DNA of 64,000 bases, from the NCBI GenBank assembly GCA_030710605.1, contig CP092882.1, positions 3,320,515 through 3,384,514 on the forward strand, given 5' to 3'. Under the pieces are notes generated by a model. That model was not told where the DNA came from and did not search any database. It saw only the letters and a program-made list of their open reading frames with translations. Positions 12,087-63,710 of the stretch are shown in pieces; position 1 is the first letter of the stretch; each line of letters starts with the position of its first letter. Source of the stretch: Cordylochernes scorpioides. Its lineage: Eukaryota; Arthropoda; Arachnida; Pseudoscorpiones; Chernetidae. A program made the translations under genes and the position numbers.

Positions 12087-14078
12087 CAACAACAACAACA
12101 ACAACAACAAAAGCTTTATTAAGACCCTTTAGTCTTATACAGATTCTCCAAGCAGAAATATAGGATACATGCAGGGAAAACAATGATAGAACTTAATGGT
12201 AACATAAAATTTATGTACAGAGAAAATGATATAAAGACAATCAAGCTAATAGATTAATCTGGGCAAATTGGAGGCAAAGAAAGTTACTATACATGGATTT
12301 ACCACGTCGTGTTAGGTCTTGTGGAGTTATTTAGTAGCAGCTCTTCTTAGCTAGGTAGAACTCCTCCTAGTCATCTTCCCCGCCCTTGGCATTGCCGACT
12401 TCACTTGTAAGCATTTCGACCTGTGAGTCAATTGTGGAGTCTTCCACTAGTAAATTCGTTGAATCCCTCAAGCTGCTCTTGTAAGATGTAGCCTTGTCAG
12501 CTGTTCAGGAATACTTGCCAACAGAACGAAACTTCGTATTATCTTTTGCCTTTATATTGTTTAGACCATTAAATTTTGGGACAAGTGGTAGATGGTCCAA
12601 ATAAGGCATGCATTCAATAGTAAGATCAACAATCAGTTCAAGTACTGCAGGCGAAACAATAGAAAGATCTATAACTGAGGATCCTTGAGTTGAAGAATAA
12701 AAGGTTCCATATTTATCACTGATAGATCTGCCATCTATTACTGTGAGTGAACTCTCATCGAGAAAATAATAATTCTACAGAGTATATTTCAGGAGATTAT
12801 TCTATGAGGATTGTTCCTTAGTGATGTAACATTTTATTTTGATAATTAGAATGTTAATGCTGAGCTACAAGTGCAGATTGGCGACTTTTATTCGTTTTTA
12901 GAAATGAGCAATCATGTGATAGTTCTTGTCTAGGTTGTCGCAAAATTTCTTCCTGAGAAAGATATTTTAACTGTGAAAAATTAGGTTGGGCAGTGGTACG
13001 AATGCTATCCGAAGTTTTCTATAATGCACCTCCGTTGGAGCTGACAACGCGGCCATTTAAAACAGAGTAGCTTATGCCACGGACAATTAGCCTGTTATCT
13101 CTTAGTTTGGAAACAGTTCCCTTACTCATGAGTTCCTTTCGCTTGCTAATTAGCAATATCCTTTGGTCTCTAATAGTTGGAGGGTAATCTTTATTTACGA
13201 ATATTTTTTTGACCCCGAGTCTGAAAGCGTTCCGAAAAAGCAGAAGTCTTTGCTTGAAATCAGGCACCTCAATAAGCAGCGGCGAATTAGATTTTTTTGT
13301 CAATCTTCGGCACTGTTCTATCCTAAGATCTTCAGAAATTTGCATCGTGTTTGAAATCAGATCTTGGATCAAACCTCGAGATTCTTCAGGGGTTTCGCCT
13401 TCTGCTCCTTCCATTCCGTAAATAATCAAGTTCTTTTCCCTCTTCCTCATCTCTTCAAGCTCCAACCGTCTCTCGAGATCGGATATTCTATTTGTATTAA
13501 GCGAGACAGCTTTAGAAGTGGTTTCCAATGATGACTCGAAGTGTTGTAGGCGCTGATTTATTTTGTCCAATCCTTGTTCAACCGAATCAAGTCTAGTCTC
13601 CATTTTTTTACCAAAGTCATCTATCTTAGTTGAAAGTGCTAAAATTAGATCATGCAAATCTTTATCTTTGCCCGCATCTAACGTTGTTTGTCTTGTCTGT
13701 TTGGGGCCAGGATTTGGTTCAATACCTGACATTAGCAGCAGCATTAAAATAATACATCGACGAGTTCCCTTTCCAGCATGAGTAAAAGAGATAGCCTTGA
13801 AATTGTTTTCATAATAAACAAAAGTTTTAGCGCGAAAATTTACATATCTAGTGATCACAGCAGCTTCTCTAGCAAAAATGAAGATATTAATTATATAGAA
13901 ATAAATAAAATCAGCTTCATGATCTTCGTAGAGAATATATAAACTATAGGCCAGATACTCACAAGAAGGTATTAACCCAATTAGAAGCACAAAAAAAACA
14001 ATAAGTTTCAAATATTTACTTATCGGAAGCCGAAGAATTTCGCGACCGGTCAACTTGGCCACCTAGCGGAGAATATCC
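12087..14078 (-). mobile_element. Internally deleted LINE with intact ORF1 and 12-bp target duplication
   Basis: Bounded by a perfect 12-bp direct repeat TATACAAGTATA (12075-12086 and 14079-14090). The 3' end has a (TTG)n tail preceded by GGTCTTAATAAAGC, shared with the LINE at 45198-46431 and the fragment at 54.5 kb. It holds a long ORF1 (13019-14062). After that comes only the end of an AP-endonuclease-like domain (about 12495-12765: SSVIDLSIVSPAVL, then PYLDHLPLV, where functional copies usually have SDH). The reverse transcriptase is missing, so the copy would need help from an intact relative to move. Confidence 0.88.
13019..14062 (-). CDS. LINE ORF1 protein with N-terminal 2A-like peptide, coiled coil and RRM-like domain
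   Basis: A 347-codon open frame. Codons 1-105 lack an ATG (the frame begins after a stop, at GTG), so real initiation may be at Met107 or Met111. Residues 103-120 form a hydrophobic run ending SGIEPNPGP (13703-13729), a 2A-like ribosome-skipping motif with Gly where the canonical motif D(V/I)ExNPGP has Asp. Residues about 135-210 are a heptad-rich coiled coil. Residues about 207-345 resemble the RNA-binding region of CR1/L2-type ORF1 proteins (NLIIYGMEG, then RDQRILLISKRKELM). Such proteins bind their own RNA in the retrotransposition particle. Known 2A-bearing LINEs place 2A at this same N-terminal position after a hydrophobic leader. The frame is intact, which suggests a fairly young insertion. 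Confidence 0.85.
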   Translation of the reverse strand: MAKLTGREILRLPISKYLKLIVFFVLLIGLIPSCEYLAYSLYILYEDHEADFIYFYIINIFIFAREAAVITRYVNFRAKTFVYYENNFKAISFTHAGKGTRRCIILMLLLMSGIEPNPGPKQTRQTTLDAGKDKDLHDLILALSTKIDDFGKKMETRLDSVEQGLDKINQRLQHFESSLETTSKAVSLNTNRISDLERRLELEEMRKREKNLIIYGMEGAEGETPEESRGLIQDLISNTMQISEDLRIEQCRRLTKKSNSPLLIEVPDFKQRLLLFRNAFRLGVKKIFVNKDYPPTIRDQRILLISKRKELMSKGTVSKLRDNRLIVRGISYSVLNGRVVSSNGGAL

Positions 14079-23942: not shown

Positions 23943-25127
23943 GGTAAGTCTCTATACTTTGAAACACACAAATATCTATAAGTCTCTATACTTTGAAACA
24001 CACAAATATCTATAAGTCTCTATACTTTGAAACACACAAATATCTGTAAGTCTCTATACTTTGAAACACACAAATATCTGTAAGTCTCTATACTTTGAAA
24101 CACACAAATATCTGTAAGTATCTATACTTTGAAACACACAAATATCTGTAAGTCTCTATACTTTGAAACACACAAATATCTGTAAGTCTCTATACTTTGA
24201 AACACACAAATATCTGTAAGTCTCTATACTTTGAAACACACAAATATCTGTAAGTCTCTATACTTTGAAACACACAAATATCTGTAAGTCTCTATACTTT
24301 GAAACACACCAGTCTGTAAGTCTCTATACTTTGAAACACACAAATATCTGTAAGTCTCTATACTTTGAAACACACAAATATCTGTAAGTCTCTATACTTT
24401 GAAACACACAAATATCTGTAAGTCTCTATACTTTGAAACACACCAGTCTGTAAGTCTCTATACTTTGAAACACACAAATATCTGTAAGTCTCTATACTTT
24501 GAAACACACAAATATCTGTAAGTCTCTATACTTTGAAACACACAAATATCTGTAAGTATCTATACTTTGAAACACACAAATATCTGTAAGTCTCTATACT
24601 TTGAAACACACAAATATCTGTAAGTCTCTATACTTTGAAACACACCAGTCTGTAAGTCTCTATACTTTGAAACACACAAATATCTGTAAGTCTCTATACT
24701 TTGAAACACACAAATATCTGTAAGTCTCTATACTTTGAAACACACAAATATCTGTAAGTCTCTATACTTTGAAACACACAAATATCTGTAAGTCTCTATA
24801 CTTTGAAACACACCAGTCTGTAAGTCTCTATACTTTGAAACACACAAATATCTGTAAGTCTCTATACTTTGAAACACACAAATATCTGTAAGTCTCTATA
24901 CTTTGAAACACACAAATATCTGTAAGTATCTATACTTTGAAACACACCAGTCTGTAAGTCTCTATACTTTGAAACACACCAGTCTGTAAGTCTCTATACT
25001 TTGAAACACACCAGTCTGTAAGTCTCTATACTTTGAAACACACCAGTCTGTAAGTCTCTATATACTTTGAAACACACCAGTCTGTAAGTCTCTATACTTT
25101 GAAACACACCAGTCTGTAAGTCTCTAT
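23943..25127 (+). repeat. 34-bp tandem array repeating a splice-donor consensus
   Basis: About 35 units of GTAAGTCTCTATACTTTGAA, ACACACAAATATCT. A shorter variant ends CACACCAGTCT instead. The long form fills the left part; the short form appears singly near 24308, 24445, 24647 and 24812 and then takes over from about 24950 to the end. Nearly every unit carries GTAAGT, and the array begins at a CAG/GGTAAGT junction. Confidence 0.95.
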
Positions 25128-30859: not shown

Positions 30860-33220
30860 AAAACTGGTGTTGCGGGTCAATCACCAATATCACCACATTC
30901 TGTTGGCTCAATTTCTTACAGACAACACTATTATTGTAGGTGACCTTAATGCCAAGCATCAACTATGGGGATGTTCCATGCCAAACCCAAGAGGCAAAAT
31001 ACTTTCAAACATACTTGATAACTGAACTGAACATTGTGAATAAAAAGATTATATGAAAAGGGAAAAATGGAAACAAACTTGTGAAAACCTGAACCCATGA
31101 AACTCAAATACAAAACTTTGGCATTTGGCAAAACAAATTGACAGAGCCCAGCCACAAACTGAAAACAAAAATATGATTAAGAATACAGATGGTACCCCAG
31201 CAACTAATGACAAAAATGCTGCCAATCTTTAAGGTAATTCATATCAAATAAGGAGTAAAATTAAATTTGAAATAAAAGATAAGAAAGTTGAAAAAAAAGG
31301 CCCGAAAGATTATTCATGACTGTAAAAATGTCACTAGCACTCATAATATTTTCCATGAAAAAATCAATATGAAAGAGCTAGATTATGCATTAGAAAACAC
31401 TGCCCTGAACAAGACTCCTGGGCCAGATGGAATCCATGGCCAAATGATATCAAACTTGGGCAAAAATGGCAAAGAAAGACTTCTTGATATTTTTAATAAC
31501 TCCTGGAAAACTGGAAAATTACCTCAAGACTGGAAAAGTGCAACAATAATTCCTATTAAAAAACTTGACAAATCTGCTGATGACCCAAAAAACTACCAAC
31601 CTATCTCCCTCACAAGTATTTGCTGCAAATTAATGGAAACAATTATACTCAGACGACTCACCTATCCCCTCGACACAAGAAATCTCTTGCCAGAAGAACA
31701 ATATGGATTTAGGAAAGGACATGGGACAATAGACCAACTCTTTATTTTTCACACAAAAGGTAAAAGATGCATAAAACAGAAAACCAACTAACCACACCAT
31801 AGCTGCTTTTTTAGACCTTACACAAGCTTTTGACAAGGTATGGAAAAACAAGTTAATTACAAAATTATACAAATATTTCAAAATTGATGGAAAAGCTATC
31901 ACTTGGATAAATGATTTCCTTAAAATAGATATATCAGGGTCAAATATAATGGAACTCTATCTAAAACCTTCAAATTGTACCAAGGATTTACCACAAGGAG
32001 CAGTCCTTAGCCCAACTCTCTTCACTCTATTTATTGCAGGCATAGAAGAAAAAATTTCACATAAAACCAATACTGGACTTTACGAAGCAGACATTATGCC
32101 CTTAAAGAATAGAAGAAGCTACAATCTGCCAAAATATATAAACAAAATCAAGAGTTATGGAAACAAACACAGAACTTCCAATTACATACTTAATTGGGAA
32201 TCCAATCTAAGACTCAAAAAAGAAGGCCCTCTCCACCTGAACAAAAGAAATGATTTTTAAAATATAAAGTAGAAAAAAAATATTTAGCAGAAAAAATTGC
32301 CCCATGCAAACCACTACAAAATGTTATTTTTAATTCCACTTTAAATGAACCCACCAACAAACAATACCAAAATCCAGAATACTTAAAACAATTATCATTA
32401 GAAATAATTAATATAACATTCCTAAAAATGCAATAACTATCTACACCGATGGTAGCAGAGACAAGTTGGGACACACTGGCAGTGGCTGTCTCATCAAAAC
32501 CACAAATGGCATTGAGAAAATAAACAGAAGAAACCCTGATTTTTGCTCAGTCTTCAGATCAGAACTTATAGCCATCTATGAAGCCTTAAAATCCATCAGA
32601 AATACTAATTATCAAGATATCTGGATTCTTACTGATAGTAGAAGTGCCATACAACACTTGAGTCACACAGGGGAACTTAGAGACAAAATAAGCAGGAACA
32701 TAATTGGCTATCTCCAAAAACTCTCAAAAACCTCAAAAATTCACCTTCAATGGATACCCTCACATGTTGGAATTGAAGGCAATGAAGCTGCTGATGTGCT
32801 AGCGAAAAAAGGCACAAAAGAACCCTTGCCACAGAAAAATAAACTTACTTTTAAAGAAATAGAAACAGTAGCCAAAACAAAAATAAGCAAGAACTGGAGG
32901 ATCCCACCTAAGCACAGTTGGTACAGTGGAGTGAACCCAGGAGGAGCTCTGAACATCAGAAATAGACAGCATCAAACAACACTAACAAGATTTAGAACAG
33001 ACCATCTCAAGCCATTGAAAATAGAAAATAACAACAAAATCTACCCCACTTGCCCAAAATGTAGCTTGGCACCTGCAGCTCCAGAACACATTTTGGCTTG
33101 CATTAGATGCACTAAACAGGACCTTTGGGAGAGGCCGCTGCTTATCATAAAACAGCTCAAGGAGCATGGACTCATGAAATTTGTGTAATATTTACACAAA
33201 GGGATAAGAAACAACAACAT
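30860..33220 (+). mobile_element. I-like LINE, copy 1, internally deleted
   Basis: In order: a piece of AP endonuclease (TIIVGDLNAKHQLWGC), a jump to reverse transcriptase (31288-31791: KTPGPDGIHGQMISNLG, then PKNYQPISLTSICCKLMET), motif A (LDLTQAFDKVW), motif B (LPQGAVLSPTLF, about 31990), a deletion that removes the YxDD catalytic box, then the thumb and connection region, then RNase H. Stops and frameshifts separate the blocks. The 3' end GGGATAAGAAACAACAAC is shared with the copies at 40935 and 42215 and with the SINE at 39205. Confidence 0.9.
32466..33188 (+). pseudogene. RNase H domain and C-terminal zinc-knuckle region of I-like LINE copy 1
   Basis: 240 codons open. RNase H signatures: upstream TIYTDGS (partly outside this frame), SELIAIYEALK, ILTDSRSAIQHL and IPSHVGIEGNEAADVLAKKG, giving the expected Glu, Asp and His/Asp active-site residues. 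A C-terminal Cys/His stretch (CPKCSLAPAAPEHILAC) resembles the zinc-binding tail of I/Jockey-group proteins. The frame starts after the first catalytic Asp, so the piece is not a functional enzyme. Confidence 0.85.
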
Positions 33221-46800: not shown

Positions 46801-49800
46801 GATCTTATGAGAAAATGTCCGCTTTAGGCTGTCGAGGGCCATGGGCTAATTGAGTGTCACACAGGTAAAACCCACGTCACCTGCGATTGCTGCAGCAGGT
46901 TGTTCTGGAGCCTTTCCAAAATGTTTCCCAAATTGGAAGTCTCTCGTTGTCAGAGATTTGGTCCCAAACCATTTACCACAAGACTTTGTTCAAGATCTGC
47001 CACATTTCTGATGATGCACAGGTCCAGTTTGTCAAAGAGGTTTGTCAAATTGTCACACTTGCAAATTGAAAACCTTTGGTCTCCATACTCTTCTTTAATT
47101 GAAGCTAACATTTCTGGAGCTGTTTTACTGGGAGTTTCAAATGATTCGCTGTTTAATAAAATGCATTTTTTTGAGAAACTTTCTAATAGAACTTGTTGTT
47201 TGCTTTATTATAAAAAATTGCCTTTAATGTGCTCAAGGCATGGTCAAATATGCTCAGATAATGAAGATTATTGTTACAATGTTTAAAACTGTCGTCTAGT
47301 TTCAAAGTACCTCACACACACAGTGATCCCACCTTGTACAAAGGAAGGATTGGAATCTCCAAGTTGACATATTCTCACCTTGCGGGAGTGGAAGGTGAGG
47401 GTGGGTTCGCCCCCAGCCTGGCACCACAGACCCAGGTGAGGTGGCAGGGCAGGTACGGGGTAGCCAGTGAGTGACTGGAGGTGGAGCGTCTCCTCCTCCC
47501 CGCCAGCCAGGCTGTACATGGCGTCCAGGTGGGGGCTGACGTCCTCCGGGGCCAGTCTCTCCATGGCCCACATCCGGTGGAGCACACAGCCGGGGGGCAG
47601 CTGACAGCCTGCACACTCCTCTAGTCCCTTCCCTGCCATGACATCTGCTGACTCCACCCACCGTGGCCACAGGGAGGGGCGGAGGAGTTGCGGCAGTGCT
47701 GGGGGCGGTGGGGCTCCAGCCCCTCACTGGGGCCGGGGGCACACAGTGCTGCAGCCACCAGCTCCGCCAGACCCTCCTCCCCAGCATCTCCCAGCACATC
47801 CCAGAGCTCTTCTTTCAGCCGCAGCATCCTGTCCTCCCCGTACACCAGACATTGATCCTGCACAGCCACATGGTACAACAATGGTCAGACACTGGTCCTG
47901 CACAGCCACATGGTACAACAATGGTCAGACACTGGTCCTGCACAGCCACATTGTACAACAATGGTTAGACACTGGTCCTGCACAGCCACATGGTACAACA
48001 ATGGTCAGACACTGGTCCTGCACAGCCACATGGTACAACAATGGTCAGACACTGGTCCTGCACAGCCACATGGTACAACAATGGTCAAACATTGGTCCTG
48101 CACAGCCACATGGTACAACAATGGTCAGACACTGGTCCTGCACAGCCACATGGTACAACAATGGTCAAACATTGGTCCTGCACAGCCACATGGTACAACA
48201 ATGGTCAGACATTGGTCCTGCACAGCCACATGGTACAACAATGGTCAGACACTGGTCCTGCACAGCCACATGGTACAACAATGGTCAGACACTGGTCCTG
48301 CACAGCCACATGGTACAACAATGGTCAAACATTGGTCCTGCACAGCCACATGGTACAACAATGGTCAGACACTGGTCCTGCACAGCCACATGGTACAACA
48401 ATGGTCAGACATTGGTCCTGCACAGCCACATGGTACAACAATGGTCAGACATTGGTCCTGCACAGCCACATGGTACAACAATGGTCAGACACTGGTCCTG
48501 CACAGCCACATGGTACAACAATGTTCAGACACTGGTCCTGCACAGTCACATGGTACAACAATGGTCAGACATTGGTCCTGCACAGCCACATGGTACAACA
48601 ATGGTCAGACATTGGTCCTGCACAGCCACATGGTACAACAATGGTCAGACATTGGTCCTGCACAGCCACATGGTACAACAATGGTCAGACACTGGTCCTG
48701 CACAGCCACATGGTACAACAATGGTCAGACACTGGTCCTGCACAGTCACATGGTACAACAATGGTTAGACACTGGTCCTGCACAGCCACATGGTACAACA
48801 ATGGTCAGACACTGGTCCTGCACAGCCACATGGTACAACAATGGTCAGACACTGGTCCTGCACAGCCACATGGTACAACAATGGTCAGACACTGGTCCTG
48901 CACAGCCACATTGTACAACAATGGTCAGACACTGGTCCTGCACAGCCACATGGTACAACAATGGTCAGACACTGGTCCTGCACAGCCACATGGTACAACA
49001 ATGGTCAGACACTGGTCCTGCACAGCCACATGGTACAACAATGGTCAGACATTGGTCCTGCACAGCCACATGGTACAACAATGGTCAGACACTGGTCCTG
49101 CACAGCCACATGGTACAACAATGGGCAGACACTGGTCCTGCACAGCCACATGGTACAACAATGGTCAGACACTGGTCCTGCACAGCCACATGGTACAACA
49201 ATGGTTAGACACTGGTCCTGCACAGCCACATGGTACAACAATGGTCAGACACTGGTCCTGCACAGTCACATGGTACAACAATGGTCAGACATTGGTCCTG
49301 CACAGCCACATGGTACAACAATGGTCAAACATTGGTCCTGCACAGCCACATTGTACAACAATGGTCAGACACTGGTCCTGCACAGCCACATGGTACAACA
49401 ATGGTCAAACATGGAGGGCAGTCAGTTACCTTGAAGATGCGGAAGTTATTCTGCGGCGTCCTGATGAGTTGTTTGACAGCAAACGTCATCCTCTCGCGGC
49501 ACCTGTCACCGAGTGTCACAGCCTGCTCCCACTGTGTCCCCACCTCACTTACCCACTGAACAGGTCGATGGGGCAGAAGCCGCTCTTCTGGGGGATGACT
49601 CCTTTCTCCAACTACAAGCAACTTACTGTCAAAACACTTGGACAACAATGTTTTTTTTTTTTGCTTCTCCCTAGTACACGTGGTACAGGCCATGATAATC
49701 ATGGTGGGTAGTTAGCGACTGCTTTTTACTGTAAGCGCACCACATGTCTACACATGTGAAAGCAGTTTGACTTTACACTTACAAATGTGCCAGAGCCCCG

Positions 49801-52800
49801 TTTGGTTACTTGCACTCGCTGGTGGGGTTGGACTTTTGCAAGAATCGGGGGGCCATTGGAGCATTTTTTTTTTTTAAACAGAAAAAAGTGTCCAATGCGG
49901 GAATCGAACCCGGGTCGTAGTTGTTGAAAACCAAATAGTTTAACCAGCCTTCCACCGACCCCCCTGTGGGGACAACATGTCACTGGACAGTGTGTGAGAA
50001 CATGTCATTGGACAGTGTATGAGAACATGTCATTGGACAGTGTATGAGAACATGTCATTGGACAGTGTGTGAGAACATGTCATTGGACAGTGTATGAGAA
50101 CATGTCATTGGACAGTGTGTGAGAACATGTCACTGGACAGTGTATGAGAACATGTCACTGGACAGTGTATGAGAACATGTCACTGGACAGTGTATGAGAA
50201 CATGTCACTGGACAGTGTATGAGAACATGTCACTGGACAGTGTATGAGAACATGTCACTGGACAGTGTATGAGAACATGTCACTGGACAGTGTATGAGAA
50301 CATGTCACTGGACAGTGTATGAGAACATGTCACTGGACAGTGTATGAGAACATGTCACTGGACAGTGTATGAGAACATGTCACTGGACAGTGTATGAGAA
50401 CATGTCACTGGACAGTGTATGAGAACATGTCACTGGACAGTGTATGAGAACATGTCACTGGACAGTGTATGAGAACATGTCACTGGACAGTGTATGAGAA
50501 CATGTCACTGGACAGTGTATGAGAACATGTCACTGGACAGTGTATGAGAACATGTCATTGGACAGTGTGTGAGAACATGTCACTGGACAGTGTATGAGAA
50601 CATGTCACTGGACAGTGTATGAGAACATGTCACTGGACAGTGTATGAGAACATGTCATTGGACAGTGTGTGGAACCAAAGCCATCAATGTTGTAGGCACA
50701 GCTACAGGTGGAAGGAACACCCCCAACCACAAGGCTGATGTTTGCTTCAAATATATAATGGAGACCAAGACCAGAATTTAACCAAAGTACTTTTTGACCA
50801 ATTGACTTAGCATCCATTGTAGGGAAATATATAATGGTCATAAATAGAGAGAGAGGAAGCCCACATAATGGCCACCACATAATGGCCACCACAGTTGGTT
50901 CACAGTAGAAACTCCCCAACCATGTGCTGACAGAATGTACAACAACTACCAGCTGTGGGACCACCAACCTTGTAGGACTGCATCAGACAGAAGCGGCAGA
51001 CCTGGGAGCGGAGCTCATGTCCTGGAGGCAGGGAGTCCGGGTCTGGGATGAAGCCTTGTTTGGGCTGGAGCAGCCACCGCGTGTGGCGGACCATCGCAGC
51101 GCAGGACTGGACTTACCTTGATCTCCACTCCCAGCATGGGGCCGACAGCGGGGAACCTGCGCAGCGCAGGGGGGATCATGCAGTAGTCGGGGAGCAGCAT
51201 GCCCAGGGTGGGGGCCTCCTGTACTACCTTGTGTCTGCGGTGGGCTGGGGACACATCCACATGGTACATTGTATGTACAACACTTCCAACACAAGGATTT
51301 ATTTCATTGCACAACAGTTCTAAATAGCAACACAAGGATTTACTTTGTACAACACTTCTAACACAAGGATTTATTTCATAGATAGAAATACTGCAAAACT
51401 TCAACATTCAACACTTACTTTAATTCAACAGTATTTTAAAATCCATTATTTATCTATTTTACATTTTCTTAAATTTAACACCAACTTTAATTCAACCCAA
51501 AATTCTGATCCCCTGGAAGTTTGACTGTATGATACAAATTACAAATAATTTCTTATTACAGCATGTGCTGGACAGATGTGAGAAATCAGCCAAACTTGTG
51601 TCATTCAATGATTGGAAGCTTCAGTTGAAGGTGATGGGAGTCAGTTGGTTTCAATCCATCCCAAGCTGACGTTTGTTGCCAAGTGGGGCAGGCCAGCAAT
51701 GTTGCCCAGAGAGAGATTTCCCACAAGGCCAAGGGTCCCCCACCCAAACACTGAGCTCAAACAAAGAAATAAGGAGTCTTGCAGGACCAGCATGGCAGAT
51801 CACATCTTCACATGATATCATTCAAAGAACAAGATCGCAAAGTCCAGGTTCAGTTCCAGGACTCCCAGTCCAAGCCAACAGTTTGTTGAAACTTATTGGA
51901 ATAGTGGAGAGCGGAACCAAAACTATTTTAAAATTGGGCAAGATTTGACCAACGGAAACAATCTAGTCAGCGATGACAATAAGTGAAGTGGTTCAATGGC
52001 AGCAGATTTGACAGATCCCAGCTGCCATGGGTTTGCACATCTAAGTAACACAACTTCAACACTCAGCCAAGTTGTCATATCCACAGTGCCTCCAAATTGC
52101 CATATTTAATTCAACTTTGTTTTCAAACTATTTACTTCAATTTGTAACTATAATTCAACTGGCAGCAAGATGTCTGCCACACTGTGGATGATTGGAGCTA
52201 GAGTCACAGAACATGTTGGATCCTAATTTTTTAAATTATAATAACACACACGTGACACAAACTGCTGGAAGGGTTCACCAGTGATGAGCCAGGCCCTCCC
52301 AATATTTCATCATTGCAGTAAGGATGACAGTAGGGGATTATAAACACAAGGTAATAAGACCAAATCCAAATAAATAAATAGTGTGTGACGTTTCGGTAAC
52401 AACGCTGTTACCGAAATGTCACACTATTTATTTATTTGGATTTGGTCTTATTACCTTGTGTTTATAATCTATAATCCAAATTGTGCCTTATTGACAGTAG
52501 GGGATTGTTTATTTACAAAACATCTGTTGGTAAATATTTGATATATTGTAGAAAAGGTTTATAATTGTAAATAGGGAAGTTGTGTTTATGCCATGCAGAT
52601 GATCAAGTATGCAATCAATGGTGGGTAGATGTAAGGTCTAGACTGTCCATCCAATGGACAAGTCAAGGTGACATTGGAGTAATTAAACAAGGGAGTGTGA
52701 CAATGTAGAATAGTGGAGGACCCATTCCAACCTTGTAGTACAATACCCAGAGTCAACTCACCAGGGCGGTGGGGCTCCACCAGCTTGTTCAGGGTCCGCA

Positions 52801-55800
52801 CCTCTGTCTCCGTGAGGGGCACCAGCACCTGGAGGTCCCCAAGTCACCAAGAGTAGGATCAATCCTCACAATGAGGAATTTCAAGGAACCATTTATATAT
52901 TTCAATTTAAAGCGCTGGGACACTTGCGCTGTCATACATATATGCAAAAAAGTCGTAGGATGAGTGGGTAACCCCCTCGATTCCCGACAGTCATGAACCG
53001 GGATTGAATCCCGCGTTAAAATTTGTTTAATATGTGATAACCTTCACATATTACACAATGTTCAATTATCATGAACTAGGTTGCTCTTGCTGAGCGGTAC
53101 CTATTTATGTGAATTTGAACCAGGCATACATATATGCCAATAAGTTGGTGGATGAGAGGGTAACACGCTCGATTCCCGACAGTCATGAACCGGGATTGAA
53201 TCCTGTGTTAAAAATTGTTTAATATGTGAATAACCTTCACATATTATTCACTGTTTCAATTATCATAAACTAGGTTGCTCTTGTTGAGTGGTACCTAATA
53301 AAGTGATTTTGGAACATGTATGCCTTTACAATTGTCTATACATACATATTTACAATAATTGTAGGCCGTGAAGAATATGATATTAACAATGAGAAGGAGA
53401 GAGAGAAAAAAGGAGAACAGAGAACTTTGTACAAAAGAAATGAATATCTGTCAATATATCTACAATCAACCTAATAAATTATCAGTTTGTTAAAATGTAT
53501 TTGTTGCTATATAATTTGTAATATATCTACAGAAGGTATTGAAGTTAATATACATTACTGGAAATACTTGGATATGTTACAATTCCAAGGAACCATCACA
53601 TTGAAGCTACACTGGATTATATTCCTATAACACCGACCTCTCAAACCAGTTTATGAAAATATTGTAACACACTAAATATATTTTGCATAAGAATTTGTGT
53701 TTAAACTATTGAGATAAGTTACGCTAACAAATACTTTGAAGTTTTTGTACAATAAATTGACAAAGAAATCCCTTTTTGTTGTCATTTCACAGCTCCAGGT
53801 TTTATACAATTAACACCTATATACCAGGAGCTGAGGCTAGAGCAGCAGGTTTACAAACAAGAGGTTAGAAGACAGCATCTCCTGACTGGGTAACTGGGCA
53901 GTGCGCCATCTATTGGGGGAAAAACAAGGTAATAAGTTCAAATCCAAATAAATAAATAGTGTGTGACATTTTGGTAACATCGCTGTTACCTAAACGTCAC
54001 ACACTATTCATTTATTTGGATTTGGTCTTATATTACCTTGTGTTTATAATTTATAATCCAAATTGTGACTTATCTATTGGTAGAAATTAAAATTTTTCTG
54101 AAATTGGCCTTCACCCTGTCTCGAATTGACAATGTACATATTTATGGCAATTCCCAGAAATGAAAAGTTGCAGTTGAGATTTTTTTCCCAAAAGACGGCA
54201 CACTGCCATCAGCAATGTTGCACAACCTGAAGGAATGCTCAAACAATAAACAACAACAACAACAAAGCTTTAAAATTTTACACAAATAAATTTACTGGCA
54301 ATGCGTTTCTTTTTTAAATCTCTACAGACCTTACTGCAATGCTATGATTTAATGAATGAGAGGGCTTGGCTCATCAGTAGTGAACCCTCTCAGCGGTTTC
54401 GCCAAATTAATCTCTAGACCGTTTAAAAAAGAAACGCATTGCCAGTAAATTTATTTGTGTAAAATTTTAACGATAGAGGGCAATAAAATTTAATTTACAA
54501 AGCTTTATTAAGACTTTTTAGTCTTTTATAGTCTAACAATAAATAAAGCAATGTGATGTTTATATTGATAATAATTGCCAGAATTGGGTAAAAGCTGTTA
54601 ATTAAGTTCTTCAATGGGGACAAAGACATGGAAGTAACTTGATTCGAAATAATGTGTCCACAATACACCGGGAACGAATTCCACACTGGACACACTTTTT
54701 CTAATTTAAAAAATGCTCTAATGACCCCCGATTCTTGCTAAATTCCAACCCCACTAGTGAGTGCAAGTAACTAAACGGAGATCTGGCACATTTGTAAGTG
54801 AAAAAGTCTAACTACTTTTCACGTATGTAGACATGTGGTGTACTTACAGTAAAAGCAGTTGCGTACTTTTTATCCACCATGATTATCATAGCTTGTACTA
54901 CGTGTACTAGGGATAATTTAAAAAAATATACACTGGAGTGGAAGGTCATCTTTCACTAGAACTAACTGGACATTGTTTCAAGGGAGAGACTGTGTAAAAC
55001 TTTTGATAAAACAAACACATGTGATGTCATAACAACATTTGTATTCTCTCACCCCATACAATTACTGGAGTTTAGAAAACCTGACTGTGGCAAGCAAAAT
55101 GTTGAAGGAACTCCCTGTTATAGATAAATTCTGCTCCAAGTCTTCCACCTGCTCTATTTCCTTAGCTTCTTGTTTATCAGGCTTCTGAGGATAATTATGT
55201 AAAATACCTGTGAAATAAATACTTTTTTCTCTCAAAATAATTTGAAGGATCTTTTCTGAAGATTATTTTTAAAATATTTGATAAGAGAAGTGCGGACACG
55301 GGCGCTGCATGAAGATAACTGACCAATGGGAACGGCCCACCTCAGTCTTCTTCCTTGTATATACCAAAAGACTGCCTACTGCTGTGTGCGGTTGTTTTGT
55401 CAACATATGTATCCTTATATCTAATAATAATACTATATTTATAGAATCACTTATTTGGCTGTTCTTTTTGTAACACCGACCCACAACAATGTTTAATATG
55501 AATATATACACTCATGGACAAAACTTTAGGAAACTGTACTTTTAGCATGTATTCAGACAATAACTCTGAAAGATATTTGATACCCAGTACCTTTATATAA
55601 TGCTAAAAGGTACAACTTCCTTCAGTTTTGTCCATGAGTGTACTTGCACTCATTGGTGGGGTTGGACTTTTGCAAGAATTGGGTGGCCATTGAAGCAATT
55701 TTTCATTTCTTTAGAAAAAAAAGTGCTTAATGCGGGATTCAATCCCAGATAGTGGCATTGATATATCATCAGTTTACACCAGCTGTGTACCAACCCATCC

Positions 55801-58800
55801 AATGTCACAAGGAGGACTCACGGGAATGTCCACCAGGGGGCTCCCCAGCAGCGGAGACACCACCTCCCGCAGGTACTCCAGGTGGGTGGCAAGATGGCCG
55901 AACTCCCGGCCCCGCTGCTGGCCCCCGCTCCATCCCACCTGCTGCTGAACACAACACCGCTGGATCTTCTCAGATTCTTAAATAAATAAATACAGGTGTG
56001 CTCTAAGTGCATCCCTTGGGACCAAGGTACCACGTCCAAATTAATAAATTATGTTTCAGTTTTGTTTCCTTCTTCAGACAAAAGTACTCAGTCTGTACTA
56101 CAAGGTAATAAGACCAAATCCAAATAAATAAATAATGTGTGACATTTCAGTAACAGCGTTGTTACCATCATCAGACAAAAGATGGAATGATAAGGTACAA
56201 TTGGGATTATAAATTAGATTCAGTCTGATGAGGGTAACAATGCTTTTACTGAAACCAAATACACGATTTATTACACGACTTGGCCTTATTGTAGTTCTAA
56301 TCTATAATCCAAATTGTTCCTTATTACTACTGAATCTGTTCTTTTATAATTCAAGTGTACCAGATTATTGGTGGGAGAAGTCTGACCACACCCCCTGGAC
56401 CCTCGACCAAGTTCTGGTCCAACGTGACAACAACACCCATTTTCCTATGAAGAGCAAAACCGATATCCAATAGAGGACATTGCTGTGATAGAGATGCATG
56501 GAGAAATCTGAGGCTCTTCATTGGACACAACAACGACAACAACCTGATCGGTGGGACCAAGATTTTGTATCGTTACAACCATGCTGTTGTACCACAGCAA
56601 AAACAATTGCATCTTTTTAATCTTTTAAACTTTTTTAAAACAAAATTGTTATATTCATTATAATTGGCTTTAAAGTAAATACATTCTTCTTTAAGAATAA
56701 AATACAATCTTTGTGGTGAATATTCTTGTAGCACTTGTGTGTGGGCAACAAAGACATTCTTCCTCCATTTTTACCAGCAGACATTGGAAACCTAGCTGTT
56801 GGTTATGAGGGACAGAGGAGGGAAATACTTCTGTGTGAAAACAGCAAGTGAGTGCACTTCCCCATGTATGCAAGTAATTCTAGTGATGTTATATGGATGT
56901 GTGTATCATCATCCTATTTTTATTACAGTAGAACTATCTCCCTGTAAAGGACAACACCTAATTGCGGAGCCAAACTGTCCTTTAGGGAGAGGAGTCCCCT
57001 TACTGGAGAGTTGCTGAATAGTAAAAATGGTAATTTTACAAATGAAAACTGTCCTTTATAGAGAGGTGTCCACTAAAGGGAGGTTCTACTGTATTTATAT
57101 TTATTCTTTATAGTAGAACCTCCTGCTAGAAGACACTTATCAAAAAAAAGGCAGTTTTCATTGTAAACATTTTTACTTCTTTCCTATCTCCACTCAATTA
57201 TATTAGGTTATCAACCCTGCCACTGAGTAGTGCTCCCAGTCTTAATGACAAAGACACCCAGACCTTAATATGATTGAGTGGAGATAAGAAAGAAGAAGTT
57301 ATCAACTTACTTCACAATGATAATGGAAGAGCAGTAGAAATGTTTATTAAAAAAAAGGAAACAAGCATCTGCATATCCACTCATGGACAAAACTTAAGGA
57401 AGTTTTACCTTTTAGCATGTATATTGGGATGAAATATATTACAGCGACCTTTATTGAAGACACACGAGGTAACCAAGTGTGAACATCCTCTGTCTCCTTA
57501 AAAAAAATGAAAAAAAGAAAACCGCCGACCTTGAAGACTTTCCACTTCCTTAAGTTTTGTCCATGAGTGTAAATAGTTTAAAATTCTATATATTATCCAC
57601 CAGTTGTAGTAATAAACCTGAGTTCTATGGAGAGTACATGGATCTCAACACCAGGATTTTATAACCTGGGTTCAATGGAGTAAGGTTGATGGCCACTGAC
57701 CATGGCATTCTGAGGTTTAAAAGGAAGGAAGTAAAACTAACCTATCCAAAATAGACAGAATCCAAGCAAGCGCAGCTAAAATCATCAGCGGACTTCGAGG
57801 ATCCTGCCCAAATCGCATTGCTGAACTCGAATCCAACCTTCTTCCCCTGCACCTAAGGAGAAAAATCTGCTTTTCAAAATTTATAACAAAAAAGATTAAC
57901 TCTCTAAAAGAACATCTTACAGGAAAATTTATTAGAAATTGGGTCCCAAACCAAAGATTAAAACGCCCCACTCCTCTCAACATGGCTCACAACTCTAATC
58001 TTTTAGACATCCCAATTAATCCCAAACACAGAACTTCCTATCCCCCACACAAAACTCGCAACAAACTCATCTGTTTCCCTCATCTACCAGACAATCCCCA
58101 CAAACATGAAACTCAGCCAGAATTACTTAAAGCTCTTGGCCTCCAAATCATTGAGGAAAATAGCTCCCTCTTCGACATCACAATTTACACTGACGGTAGC
58201 CAACTTGAAACTGGACTGTCTGGCAGTGGAATTGCTATCTACAAAGATAAGATCCTGGAAAAAATCTCCCTCTCCCACCCTAGACATCTTTCAGTTTATA
58301 AATCAGAACTCTCTGCTATAGATATGGCTCTAAAAGACATCAACATCAACTCGCCAAGCAAAATAATAATCTACTCCGACTCAAGAGAAGCCATTTATAC
58401 CCTTCAAAGCTGCTTCTCCAGTCAAGAACCCCTCCTCAAGAGCATTGCTAAGTCTGTAAACCGACTCCCAGCCAACAGCTCAGTCACAGTGCAATGGCTT
58501 CCAGCTCACGTTGGAATTCCTGGTAATGAGCTGGCAGACTCTCTGGCAAAGGCTGGTGCTCTTGGCCTACCTGAAGCAAGAGAATCCACCACCCAACTAG
58601 ACGAAAGAGACCTCCTCCGTACCATCAAAACCCAATGCCTGCAGGAATGGAAATCTGATGCTGCACATGACTGGTACAGAGCAGGAGGGACAAGCACCGG
58701 TTCTGTCCTCCCAAGAGAACAACAGTCTTTGATTTCCAGACTTAAGTCTGGTCATCTACGGACAATGACTTTCCAGAATGGTTGCAAGGTTTTCCCACTA

Positions 58801-61800
58801 TGTACCAAGTGCAATTCTCAGCCTGCAACCCCAAGACATATTATTGACTGTATTGACTCATCCATTGATGAGCTCTACTCTTCCCCGGCAGACACCATCA
58901 AAAATCTCAAGCTTTACAGGCTTGATACCTTAGTGTGATTGGGTGGAGATAAGAAAGAAGAAGAAGAAGAAGAAAGGAAGGAATCTATCAAAGTGCTACA
59001 AAAGTGGAATTGTACTGGGATCAGATGGATAAATTAGAGAAAGGCATTTCCTGATTGTGCAACTAAAAGTTGCTGATGGTTTGCGCCATCTGTTGGAATA
59101 AATATCAATTATTCATTGATTTTTATTCCAGAATTGGCCAGGGCTGTTGGCCCTCATCAGCTTGATACAAGCTGTACCTTAACGACCAAACAAACTGGTC
59201 ATTCAGGCATCCTGAATGTATCAAAATCTAAGGCAAATGTCTTATACTTGCCAAGTGGGTGTTCCTACCTATGGCTTCTAAGATCAAAACTTCTGCAAGT
59301 ACAATATTTGGATTAACAAGACCAAATAGATAGATAAGACTGTTGGTGACATTCCGGTAACAACAACAACTTCAGACAAAAGTACAGAATGATAGGAAAT
59401 GTTGGGAAATATTTTCAGTTTTGAGTGGAAACTTTATAAGTACATTTAACTATAAATCCTGGAATTTTTGTGGTTAGATTGACATCAGCTTGGCTGGGCT
59501 TATTCTCTCCTATCCATACATGTGGAACAGTGAAGTGGCACCCTTTTTCTAATGAAGAGCAACACCCAAGATAGAGGACATTGCTGTGATAGAGATGTAT
59601 GGAGACATCTGAGGCTCTTCATTGGACACCACAACAGTAAAGCCAAACACAAGGTAATAAGTCCAACTCCAAATAAATAAATAGTGTGTGACATTTCCAT
59701 CAAAGCATTGTAACTGAAATGTCACACACTTTATTTATTTGGATTTGTTAACACAAGGTAATAAGGTAAGCAGAGGAGCTTCTTGATATAATTTATTATC
59801 GCTAGCTTTCGAACCCACAAGGTTCTTCATCTGGCCTGGATAGCTTTTAAACTAACATTAGTTTAAAAGCTATCCAGGCCAGATGAAGAACCTTGTGGGT
59901 TCGAAAGCTAGCGATAATAAATTATATCAAGAAGCTCCTCTGCTTACTTTATTTCATGTCAATTTGATCAGGATTAGAGTTGTTCTATAAAAAACAAGGT
60001 AATAAGACTAAATTCAAATAAATAAATAGTGTGTGAGGTTTCGGTAACAGCGTTGTTACCATCTTCAGACAAAAGTGCTGAATGAGAAATTTTACAACAG
60101 CATGATTTAAATAGTTACTGTTATCAAGTGTGTAAAAAAACCATGCTGTGGTAAAATTTCTCATTTAGTACTTTTGTCTGAAGATGGTAACAACGCTGTT
60201 ACCGAAATGTCACACACTATTTATTTATTTGGATTTGGTCTTATTACCTTGTGTTTATAATCTATACTCTAAATTGTGCCTTATCATTTGGATTTGTTCT
60301 AATGACTTTATGTTTCTAATCTATAATCCAAACTGTACCTTACCAACAGTGAAGCCATTTCAATTTGTGGACAGTAGAACCTCTATAACTCAACCCCAAC
60401 AATAATTCAACACCTACTTTAATTCAACAGTTTTCTTATTCCTAAACAGGATATTTCCTTTCATTCAACCGACTATAATTCAACAGGGTGTTGCAGGAAG
60501 TCTGTATTTATGATAATTTGGAATAAACGACACTTCAGTAGCAGCATCGCCACCATCTTCAGACAAAGTATTGTCAGTATGCCATTCACCGTTGCCTACA
60601 TTTCATTGTCTGGTTACTGCTTAACTTCAACTATGTGAAAAAATTGCCTCGGAGGCAAAAAACCTGTTAACTTGGGCAATAACATTTCACCAACATTTTT
60701 TGATCCAATCACTATTGTTACAATTACAAGAAAATAAGACCTCATCCAAATAAATTAATAATATGTGATGTTTCGGTAACAGCGTTGTTACCATCATCAG
60801 ACAAAAGAATACATGAGAAAAAATATCACAGCATGTTTTGGCCATCAATGAGCAACTAAGGGAAAGATTGTTTGTGGCATGGTACAATTAGAATTGTCAA
60901 AGTTTTCAAGATTTTTGTCAAAAATAAAGAGACATGTTTTTGAGTGAAGAATTTATAAATAAAATTAATTCTCTGGTTAATTCTAACAAGCTGGTCTTGA
61001 GCCAAGGATGAGGACACACATGAACTAGTGTAGATGTGGAGAGAAACATTTCCTGCTAACTTTCATAAAGGCAAACTCCAGAACACAGCGTGTGAGAAGT
61101 TCAATTGCCACCATTATTAAAATACCAAACTCTGCCTTTGCCGGTCCCAAGCCCGGATAAAAAAGGAGGAGGGGGAGCAGTAACAAGCTCACTAAAAAAA
61201 CCCGGGTTCAGCTGGCCCGGCTGATAGTACCTTGTAAGGGCTCCTAATCCAGGGATACAGGATGAGCAGTGTTTGTACTCCATGTTAGGAGCGGCTGCAC
61301 ATGGAGTCTGTTCCTCATGTCAAAGGCGGCCATTTCTTTTGGAGCTAAGTTGGCCTGCCACTGAGTAGTGCTCCCAGTCTTAATTACAAAGGCATTCTAC
61401 TTCACCCAGTCATGATGGTTGTCAAACAGACACCATCAAGGGTCACAACTTGATACCCTAATATGATTGAGTGGAGATAAGAAAGAAGAAGATTAAAATA
61501 TCTGATCTATGGCTATATTATGGTGTTTATCATCACCTACAGACATCCTCTACTGCAATGATAACATTATTAAATGAGAGGGTTCACCACAGATGAGCCA
61601 AGCCTCATCTAATAACTTTTATCATTGCAGGAAGGTCTGTAGAGAAGATTTGATAATAAATACCATAAGGAACATAATGCCAAAATTGAAAGTTACAGAT
61701 TTTAATAAAATATAATTTATTCAACACTACATAATAAATAACATACATACAGTACCTCTCTGACAACACCTAGCTGCATGTTTCCTTCAGAGTGTCCTCT

Positions 61801-63039: not shown

Positions 63040-63710
63040 TACACAGTTGGTCCCACAGACTCTTGGCAACTCCATGGCAGCACTCTCTTTTTTATCTATT
63101 TTCCCTACTACATGTGGTCCATGATAACCATGGTGGGTACTTGGCGACTCCATGGCAGCACTCTCTTTTTTATCTATTTTCCCTACTACATGTGGTCCAT
63201 GATAATCATGGTAGGTACTTGGCAACTGCTGTAAGTGCACCCTATGTCTACACAGTTGGTCCCACAGACTCTTGGCAACTCCATGGCAGCACTCTCTTTT
63301 TTATCTATTTTCCCTACTACATGTGGTCCATGATAATCATGGTGGGTACTTGGCGACTGCTGTAAGTGCGCCATGTCTACACAGGTAGAAAGTGTTTTGA
63401 CTTGTGCACTTACAGAGCTCCGTTGTGCCAGAGCCCCGTTTGGTTACTTGCACTTACAGAGCTCCATTGTGCCAGAGTCCCGTTTGGTTACTTGCACTTA
63501 CAGAGCTCCGTTGTGCCAGAGCCCCGTTTGGTTACTTGCACTTACAGAGCTCCATTGTGCCAGAGCCCCGTTTGGTTACTTGCACTTACAGAGCTCCGTT
63601 GTGCCAGAGCCCCGTTTGGTTACTTGCACTCACTAGTGGGGTTGCACTTTTGCAATAGTCAAGGGCCATTGGAGAAATTTTTTATTGAGAAAAAGCACAC
63701 AGGATTGTCA
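63040..63710 (-). mobile_element. tRNA-derived SINE S1, internally amplified
   Basis: The 3' segment (CTATTTTCCCTACTACATGT, GGTCCATGATAATCATGG) occurs three times at 63080-63345. The middle segment (ACTTACAGAGCTCCGTTGTG, CCAGAGCCCCGTTTGGTTAC, TTGC) is tandemly repeated about five times at 63408-63625 with A/G variants. The head-proximal body follows at 63626-63710. Confidence 0.8.

Follow-up and report, generated by a model that had tools for sequence, protein, structure and literature searches.

The window, by which we mean the whole analysed stretch of 64,000 nucleotides, is located on a 73-Mb contig, 3.3 Mb in from the contig start, and carries on its minus strand a predicted gene for inositol-pentakisphosphate 2-kinase (IPPK), which is found once in the genome and is apparently intact. 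Exons c, d, e, e2, f, g, h and i, all with GT/AG borders, join into a single open frame of 315 amino acids. The gene model spans exons c to i, with possible exons upstream of c or beyond i lying outside it, and the 3' end of exon h and the start of exon i were picked by frame and GT/AG consensus, not by homology. In the direction of transcription the features are:

55822..55944, minus strand: exon c, 123 nt, with an uncertain 5' limit
52762..52828, minus strand: exon d, 67 nt
51117..51244, minus strand: exon e, 128 nt, ending in ...GVEIK
50969..51064, minus strand: exon e2, 96 nt, reading PKQGFIP..., with a 52-nt intron before it
49974..50675, minus strand: second minisatellite, 28 copies of a 25-nt unit, in intron e2/f and off any splice site
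49553..49611, minus strand: exon f, 59 nt
49430..49502, minus strand: exon g, 73 nt, ending in ...NNFRIFK in phase 0, with a Pfam match at 49430-49498
47858..49429, minus strand: intron g/h, 1572 nt, with GT at 49429-49428 and AG at 47859-47858
49410..49429, minus strand: unique 5' part of the intron including the donor site, 20 nt
47850..49409, minus strand: array in which 39 units of 40 nt follow head to tail, each made of 32 nt resembling an intron end plus 8 nt resembling an exon start
47728..47857, minus strand: exon h, 130 nt, starting with DQCLVYG and preceded by acceptor 39
47379..47647, minus strand: exon i, 269 nt, preceded by an intron of 80 nt (83 nt is also compatible with the frame)

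When compared with the Pfam profile PF06090, the joined exons passed the profile test with a score of 167.7 bits (E 6.3e-49; cut-off 22.7), and 155.1 bits were reached without exons h and i. A genome-wide search with the same profile gave three matches, two of which are at the IPPK locus, namely exon e2 (50966-51064, E 0.0934) and exon g (49430-49498, E 2.4). Singly these are weak, and combined they reach 38.3 bits, above the cut-off of 22.7. The third match, on contig C24 (E 1.48), was rejected as a second IPPK, being below the cut-off at a locus with repeat-like frames. With phmmer the 315-aa protein was aligned to the IPPK chains 5mw8_A (E 1.6e-24) and 4axd_A, which we take to be a mouse and a plant protein, with no insertion at the g/h junction, and the aligned blocks stop soon past that junction, 7 residues on in 5mw8_A and 8 in 4axd_A. 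In the alignment to 5mw8_A, RIFK|DQCLVYG stands opposite RIFKNGELIYG and is free of gaps at the junction. Exon i alone gave no IPPK match among solved structures. Exons g and h each occur once in the genome, at this locus and separated as an intron would predict, and neither the profile search nor the searches with exons g and h found any further copy of IPPK in the genome, whether as a retrocopy, a paralogue or another allele.

The preliminary description of this DNA had reported a 52-nt intron, lying between exons g and h, that was extended to 1572 nt as its own 3' splice site was copied in tandem. The array is real, and we can confirm that observation with some corrections. On the minus strand the donor GTAACTGACTGCCCTCCATG begins at 49429 and the first base of exon h is 47857. 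The consensus unit is TCTGACCATTGTTGTACCATGTGGCTGTGCAG|GACCAGTG, 32 nt of which read as an intron end and are followed by 8 nt that resemble an exon start, a composition that had been described correctly, and exon h truly begins with the final 8 nt of the array (47850-47857). Joining acceptor 1 to exon h gives an intron of 52 nt, like two other introns of IPPK. Neighbouring introns of 50, 52 and 53 nt had been named; f/g measures 50 nt, e/e2 52 nt and h/i 80 nt, and the remaining three are of 2993, 1517 and 1357 nt.

Tandem Repeats Finder (TRF) described the array with a period of 40, 39.2 copies, 96% matches and a score of 2922, and on this score the array is not due to chance. The units had been called perfect and about 39 in number; their number and their length of exactly 40 nt stand, but only 14 of the 39 are identical to the consensus, the mean mismatch is 1.9% and 13 distinct sequences occur, with variation in 8 of the 40 columns. 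The 3' splice sites are near-identical and in tandem as claimed, but 39 in all and not about 40. Every unit contains CTGTGCAG|GA, with a distance of 40 nt between neighbouring copies of CTGTGCAG in all 38 intervals, and CTGTGCAGGA is likewise conserved in all 39. The terminal 8 nt of the unit, which had been said to match the exon start, are similar to it but differ at one or two bases in 38 of the 39 units; units 1-38 end in GACCAGTG or GACCAATG, where the exon has GATCAATG. Unit 39 has a private base at column 35, and the variant seen in unit 1 is common to units 3, 28, 32 and 34. A lag analysis over lags 1-15 revealed no clear period of higher order, the share of identical pairs being 0.12-0.30 compared with 0.19 for all pairs. 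The copy number of 39 comes from one assembly and one haplotype, and the true number may differ.

When the transcript is read from exon g in phase 0 into each of the acceptors, 38 of the 39 lead to a premature stop, in all cases at most 70 codons past the acceptor. Acceptors 1-36 stop inside the array, while for acceptors 37 and 38 the stop lies 40 and 57 codons on, within exon h. Acceptor 39 alone stays open through exon h and yields the DQCLVYG of the conserved protein, in agreement with the earlier statement that only the last acceptor leads usefully into the exon. It adjoins the true exon, 130 nt ahead of the exon h donor, and we infer from the protein that it is the acceptor in use.

The most rational explanation, and one that we hold to be probable, is that a minisatellite arose and expanded where intron and exon meet in an IPPK gene that is apparently intact, forming what has been called a “mirage” array, and that it is an accident tolerated in a minisatellite-rich genome rather than a device. 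In the ancestor this would have been a simple intron of some 52 nt. A first duplication may have taken place between a pair of short direct repeats, imperfect and spaced by 40 nt, and slippage or unequal exchange would then have multiplied the units to 39. In the hypothetical joined sequence of acceptor 1 and exon h there is a direct-repeat footprint, TC[C/A]ATGT[T/C]TG, with 8 of 10 bases alike, present as TCCATGTTTG in the intron and as TCAATGTCTG within the opening 12 nt of exon h; no run of agreement between the two repeats extends past these 10 bases. Such a footprint could be the expected trace of the first duplication, and a decayed edge of the array could also be its source.

For the gene to tolerate the array, the spliceosome would mostly pick the last acceptor, by recognising exon h jointly with the donor that follows it, and transcripts joined to earlier acceptors would meet early stops and be lost through nonsense-mediated decay. 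Short introns are usually spliced by pairing across the intron, and since IPPK has very short introns (50, 52 and 80 nt) acceptor 1 would be favoured and unproductive mRNA would be made, which counts against the reading as a tolerated accident. Some loss of transcripts through wrong acceptor choice is likely.

This loss could also be put to use. It is possible that unproductive acceptors tune the output of IPPK, and the array would then be a length-dependent brake with 38 poison acceptors upstream of the good one, where more units lead to more early-spliced and degraded transcripts and the length of the array sets how much IPPK is made. We find this unlikely, even if the stops described above come soon after each of the 38 acceptors and all acceptors present the same CTGTGCAG|GA. 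A branch-site-like match to yTnAy, placed 15 nt or more upstream of the AG, occurs in 37 of the 39 units, a motif so short that it is common by chance, and since the joining of exon g to any acceptor makes AAG|GA and not AG|GT, the junction contains no donor and an early mis-splice is beyond repair by recursive splicing. Against a brake speaks that there is no sign of selection; the acceptor block of 10 columns is invariant, but a random placement of the 8 variable columns leaves it so in 7.6% of cases. Neither does RNA folding help, as a 321-nt piece of the array folds worse than 100 of 100 shuffles (z 4.92), and on the same result folding does not seem to mask the upstream acceptors. Lancelet arrays of this kind reportedly leave regular splicing undisturbed. 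A natural dimmer, in which 38 poison acceptors compete with one good acceptor and the number of units sets the surviving IPPK mRNA, and hence the production of inositol hexakisphosphate, seems improbable to us. In such a dimmer the unit number would shift rapidly from allele to allele, perhaps even among the cells of a single body, and the level of IPPK mRNA and the production of inositol hexakisphosphate would follow that number.

An artefact of assembly or sequencing, by which an array that is shorter or absent in the organism was stretched through misassembly, is very unlikely. It is true that a single assembly with a single copy of the locus was observed, and arrays of this kind are in general hard to assemble. 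On the other hand, the units comprise 13 different sequences without any clear repeated block in the lag analysis, and this scatter of unit variants disfavours a simple stutter of the assembly. The exons on both flanks are intact as well, and other parts of this assembly frequently contain arrays of a similar sort. We regard a wrong copy number as quite possible, and an invented array as not likely.

Transposon-like sequence is common in the window, with RNase H and reverse transcriptase domains, and one could therefore imagine that a satellite or part of a transposable element was inserted in the intron and resembles an acceptor by accident. This is highly improbable. When the 2.62-Gb genome (24 contigs) was searched with 80 nt of sequence made up from the unit, 38 matches were obtained, every one inside the array, and where the preliminary description had named the same array at unrelated sites as a thing to check for, no other site was found, with the best candidates scored and simple repeats and very common words skipped. 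The array also passes unbroken from the intron into the true start of the exon at unit 39. That proteins might lengthen in steps of 40 nt, with three units (120 nt) preserving the frame, as had been proposed, can be dismissed with near certainty, for although acceptors 3, 6, ... 36 do lie multiples of 120 nt from the last, all 12 run into a stop within the array, by which such growth is excluded for this allele, and the aligned IPPK chains have no insertion at the g/h junction.

The surroundings of the gene are rich in minisatellites. In the window, 9 arrays with a period of 10-200 and at least 5 copies make up 18.5% of the sequence, while a genome sample of 20 regions of 10 kb, one each from 20 of the 24 contigs, contained 10 such arrays in 2.7% of 200 kb, two of them short and AT-rich (56 and 66 nt). 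The minisatellite share in the window is thus about 7 times that of the 20 sampled regions. By simple arithmetic the chance that a given splice boundary falls within a founding unit of 40 nt is about 0.2% at the sampled density and 0.6% at the density of the window, and because of this chance per boundary, arrays on splice boundaries are expected to arise occasionally with no purpose behind them. Of the 10 arrays in the sample, none contains GTAAGT, GTGAGT, CTGCAG or CTGTGCAG on either strand.

Two further arrays in the window carry motifs of a 5' splice site. At 23944-25127 on the plus strand, a minisatellite with a 34-nt unit begins exactly at CCCAGG|GTAAGT and contains 34 copies of GTAAGT, directly after a short open stretch led by ATG. 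This may be a candidate 5' splice-site array of the same kind, next to a putative exon. At 63405-63630 on the minus strand, a 44-nt unit is present in 5.1 copies with GTAAGT 5 times on that strand; part of the unit recurs, as judged by eye, near 49780-49815 and 54750-54800, and the array looks to be derived from a dispersed repeat.

Elsewhere in the window, fragments of LINE-like elements with reverse transcriptase and RNase H lie on the plus strand at 31276-33188 and 57721-58938, and by eye related pieces are found in open frames between 41028 and 43988. At 13019-14062 on the minus strand there is an open frame of 347 amino acids with the peptide SGIEPNPGP, which resembles the 2A-type peptide of some LINE first proteins; against Pfam the frame gave only weak matches under the cut-offs. 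ARAGORN found no tRNA genes in the window. A genome search for WD40, in which 150 of 945 candidates were scored, gave at least 150 matches, many of those listed being in pairs or triples of equal score that are spaced tens to more than 100 kb apart on a contig (C4, C16, C13, C1 and others). These could be recent duplications, or two haplotypes placed side by side in the assembly.

What makes the IPPK array worth attention is that it amounts to a natural competition experiment, where one donor faces 39 near-identical acceptors whose main difference is their position. The gene is conserved, and the farthest acceptor is its sole productive choice. The exon g/h junction in RNA would gauge how much position and the neighbouring exon, as compared with the sequence of the acceptor itself, decide the choice of a 3' splice site.

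Several known systems resemble the array in part. Recursive splicing uses AG|GT ratchet points in long introns, and shares with the IPPK array that one intron has several acceptors. The IPPK acceptors are however followed by GA, so that no donor is re-formed, and with CAG|GA in 39 of 39 units in place of AG|GT we rejected recursive splicing as an explanation. Intron gain through duplicated AG|GT is similar in being a tandem duplication that copies splice signals within a gene, but in IPPK an existing intron was lengthened and none was made, and the unit is without AGGT and brings no donor (compared with the parts of PMC2891723 used here). Intron gain of this type was also set aside, since by eye the consensus unit lacks AGGT even across the unit border and GA follows the acceptor in 39 of 39 units.

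A closer parallel is found in human paralogues, where, as far as the excerpted text goes, tandem repeats that lie on exon-intron boundaries in segmental duplications account for 27 reported intron changes (PMC2812944). These are minisatellite expansions at an exon-intron boundary that alter introns, just as in IPPK, with units of about 30 bp repeated 4 times on average, in recent primate paralogues, and they are often retained in some transcripts according to the same excerpt (PMC2812944). The IPPK array, set against those repeats, lies in a conserved gene found once and has 39 units (PMC2812944, in part). With wider wordings the literature search gave no further case of a boundary array among the matches listed, apart from these human genes, most subscription journals being outside the search. 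Two papers were considered as parallels and set aside on the sections used, one on a worm minisatellite close to regions of alternative splicing (PMC4039745) and one on mitochondrial group II introns (PMC6823432).

The known kind to which the IPPK array belongs, as judged by this comparison, is that of the “mirage” minisatellites, and it would be a large further example with many copies. Each of its 39 units combines intron and exon sequence of one boundary (32 nt and 8 nt), and the splice signal is repeated within the units, CTGTGCAGGA being present in all 39. The gene and the repeats suggest that the host is an animal. Lancelet genomes are of about 0.5 Gb, a size with which the 2.62 Gb of the genome here does not agree, and the gene is a different one from those in the lancelet cases. 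Under the name “mirage” only lancelet cases were found among the matches listed, most subscription journals being outside the search. If the host is not a lancelet, this suggests that mirages are no lancelet speciality. Minisatellite-dense genomes should in that case contain many of them, and their number as compared with that expected by chance would measure the selection that protects splice sites.

The first mirage to be described was that of lancelet Adh3, as cited in the excerpts of PMC3087553 and PMC3902484. Its units are of 10-72 bp and it is somatically unstable, as cited in part of PMC3087553. The same part of that paper describes mirages in the lancelet globin genes BflGb9 and BflGb6, the latter joining intron end and exon start in units that number 6 in one haplotype and 3 in another, and puts forward the idea that new introns may come from mirages (PMC3087553). 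An array in PGBD5 is added in a text that in its excerpted part also cites Adh and troponin C (PMC3902484). Splicing and length variation have been studied in the lancelet arrays, and the Adh3 data together with RT-PCR of the globins suggest, in the portion of the paper cited, that regular splicing is undisturbed (PMC3087553). As represented in the excerpts, the lancelet mirages resemble the IPPK array in being tandem units over an intron/exon boundary with a splice signal in many of them; both 5' and 3' boundaries can be affected, and the cited unit sizes of 10-160 bp cover the 40 nt of IPPK (PMC3087553, PMC3902484). Within the cited part of PMC3087553, the IPPK array differs in its copy number, with 39 units of exactly 40 nt compared with the 6 and 3 of BflGb6, and in its splice signal, with the acceptor preserved in all 39 units whereas many but not all of the lancelet units retain their AG or GT.
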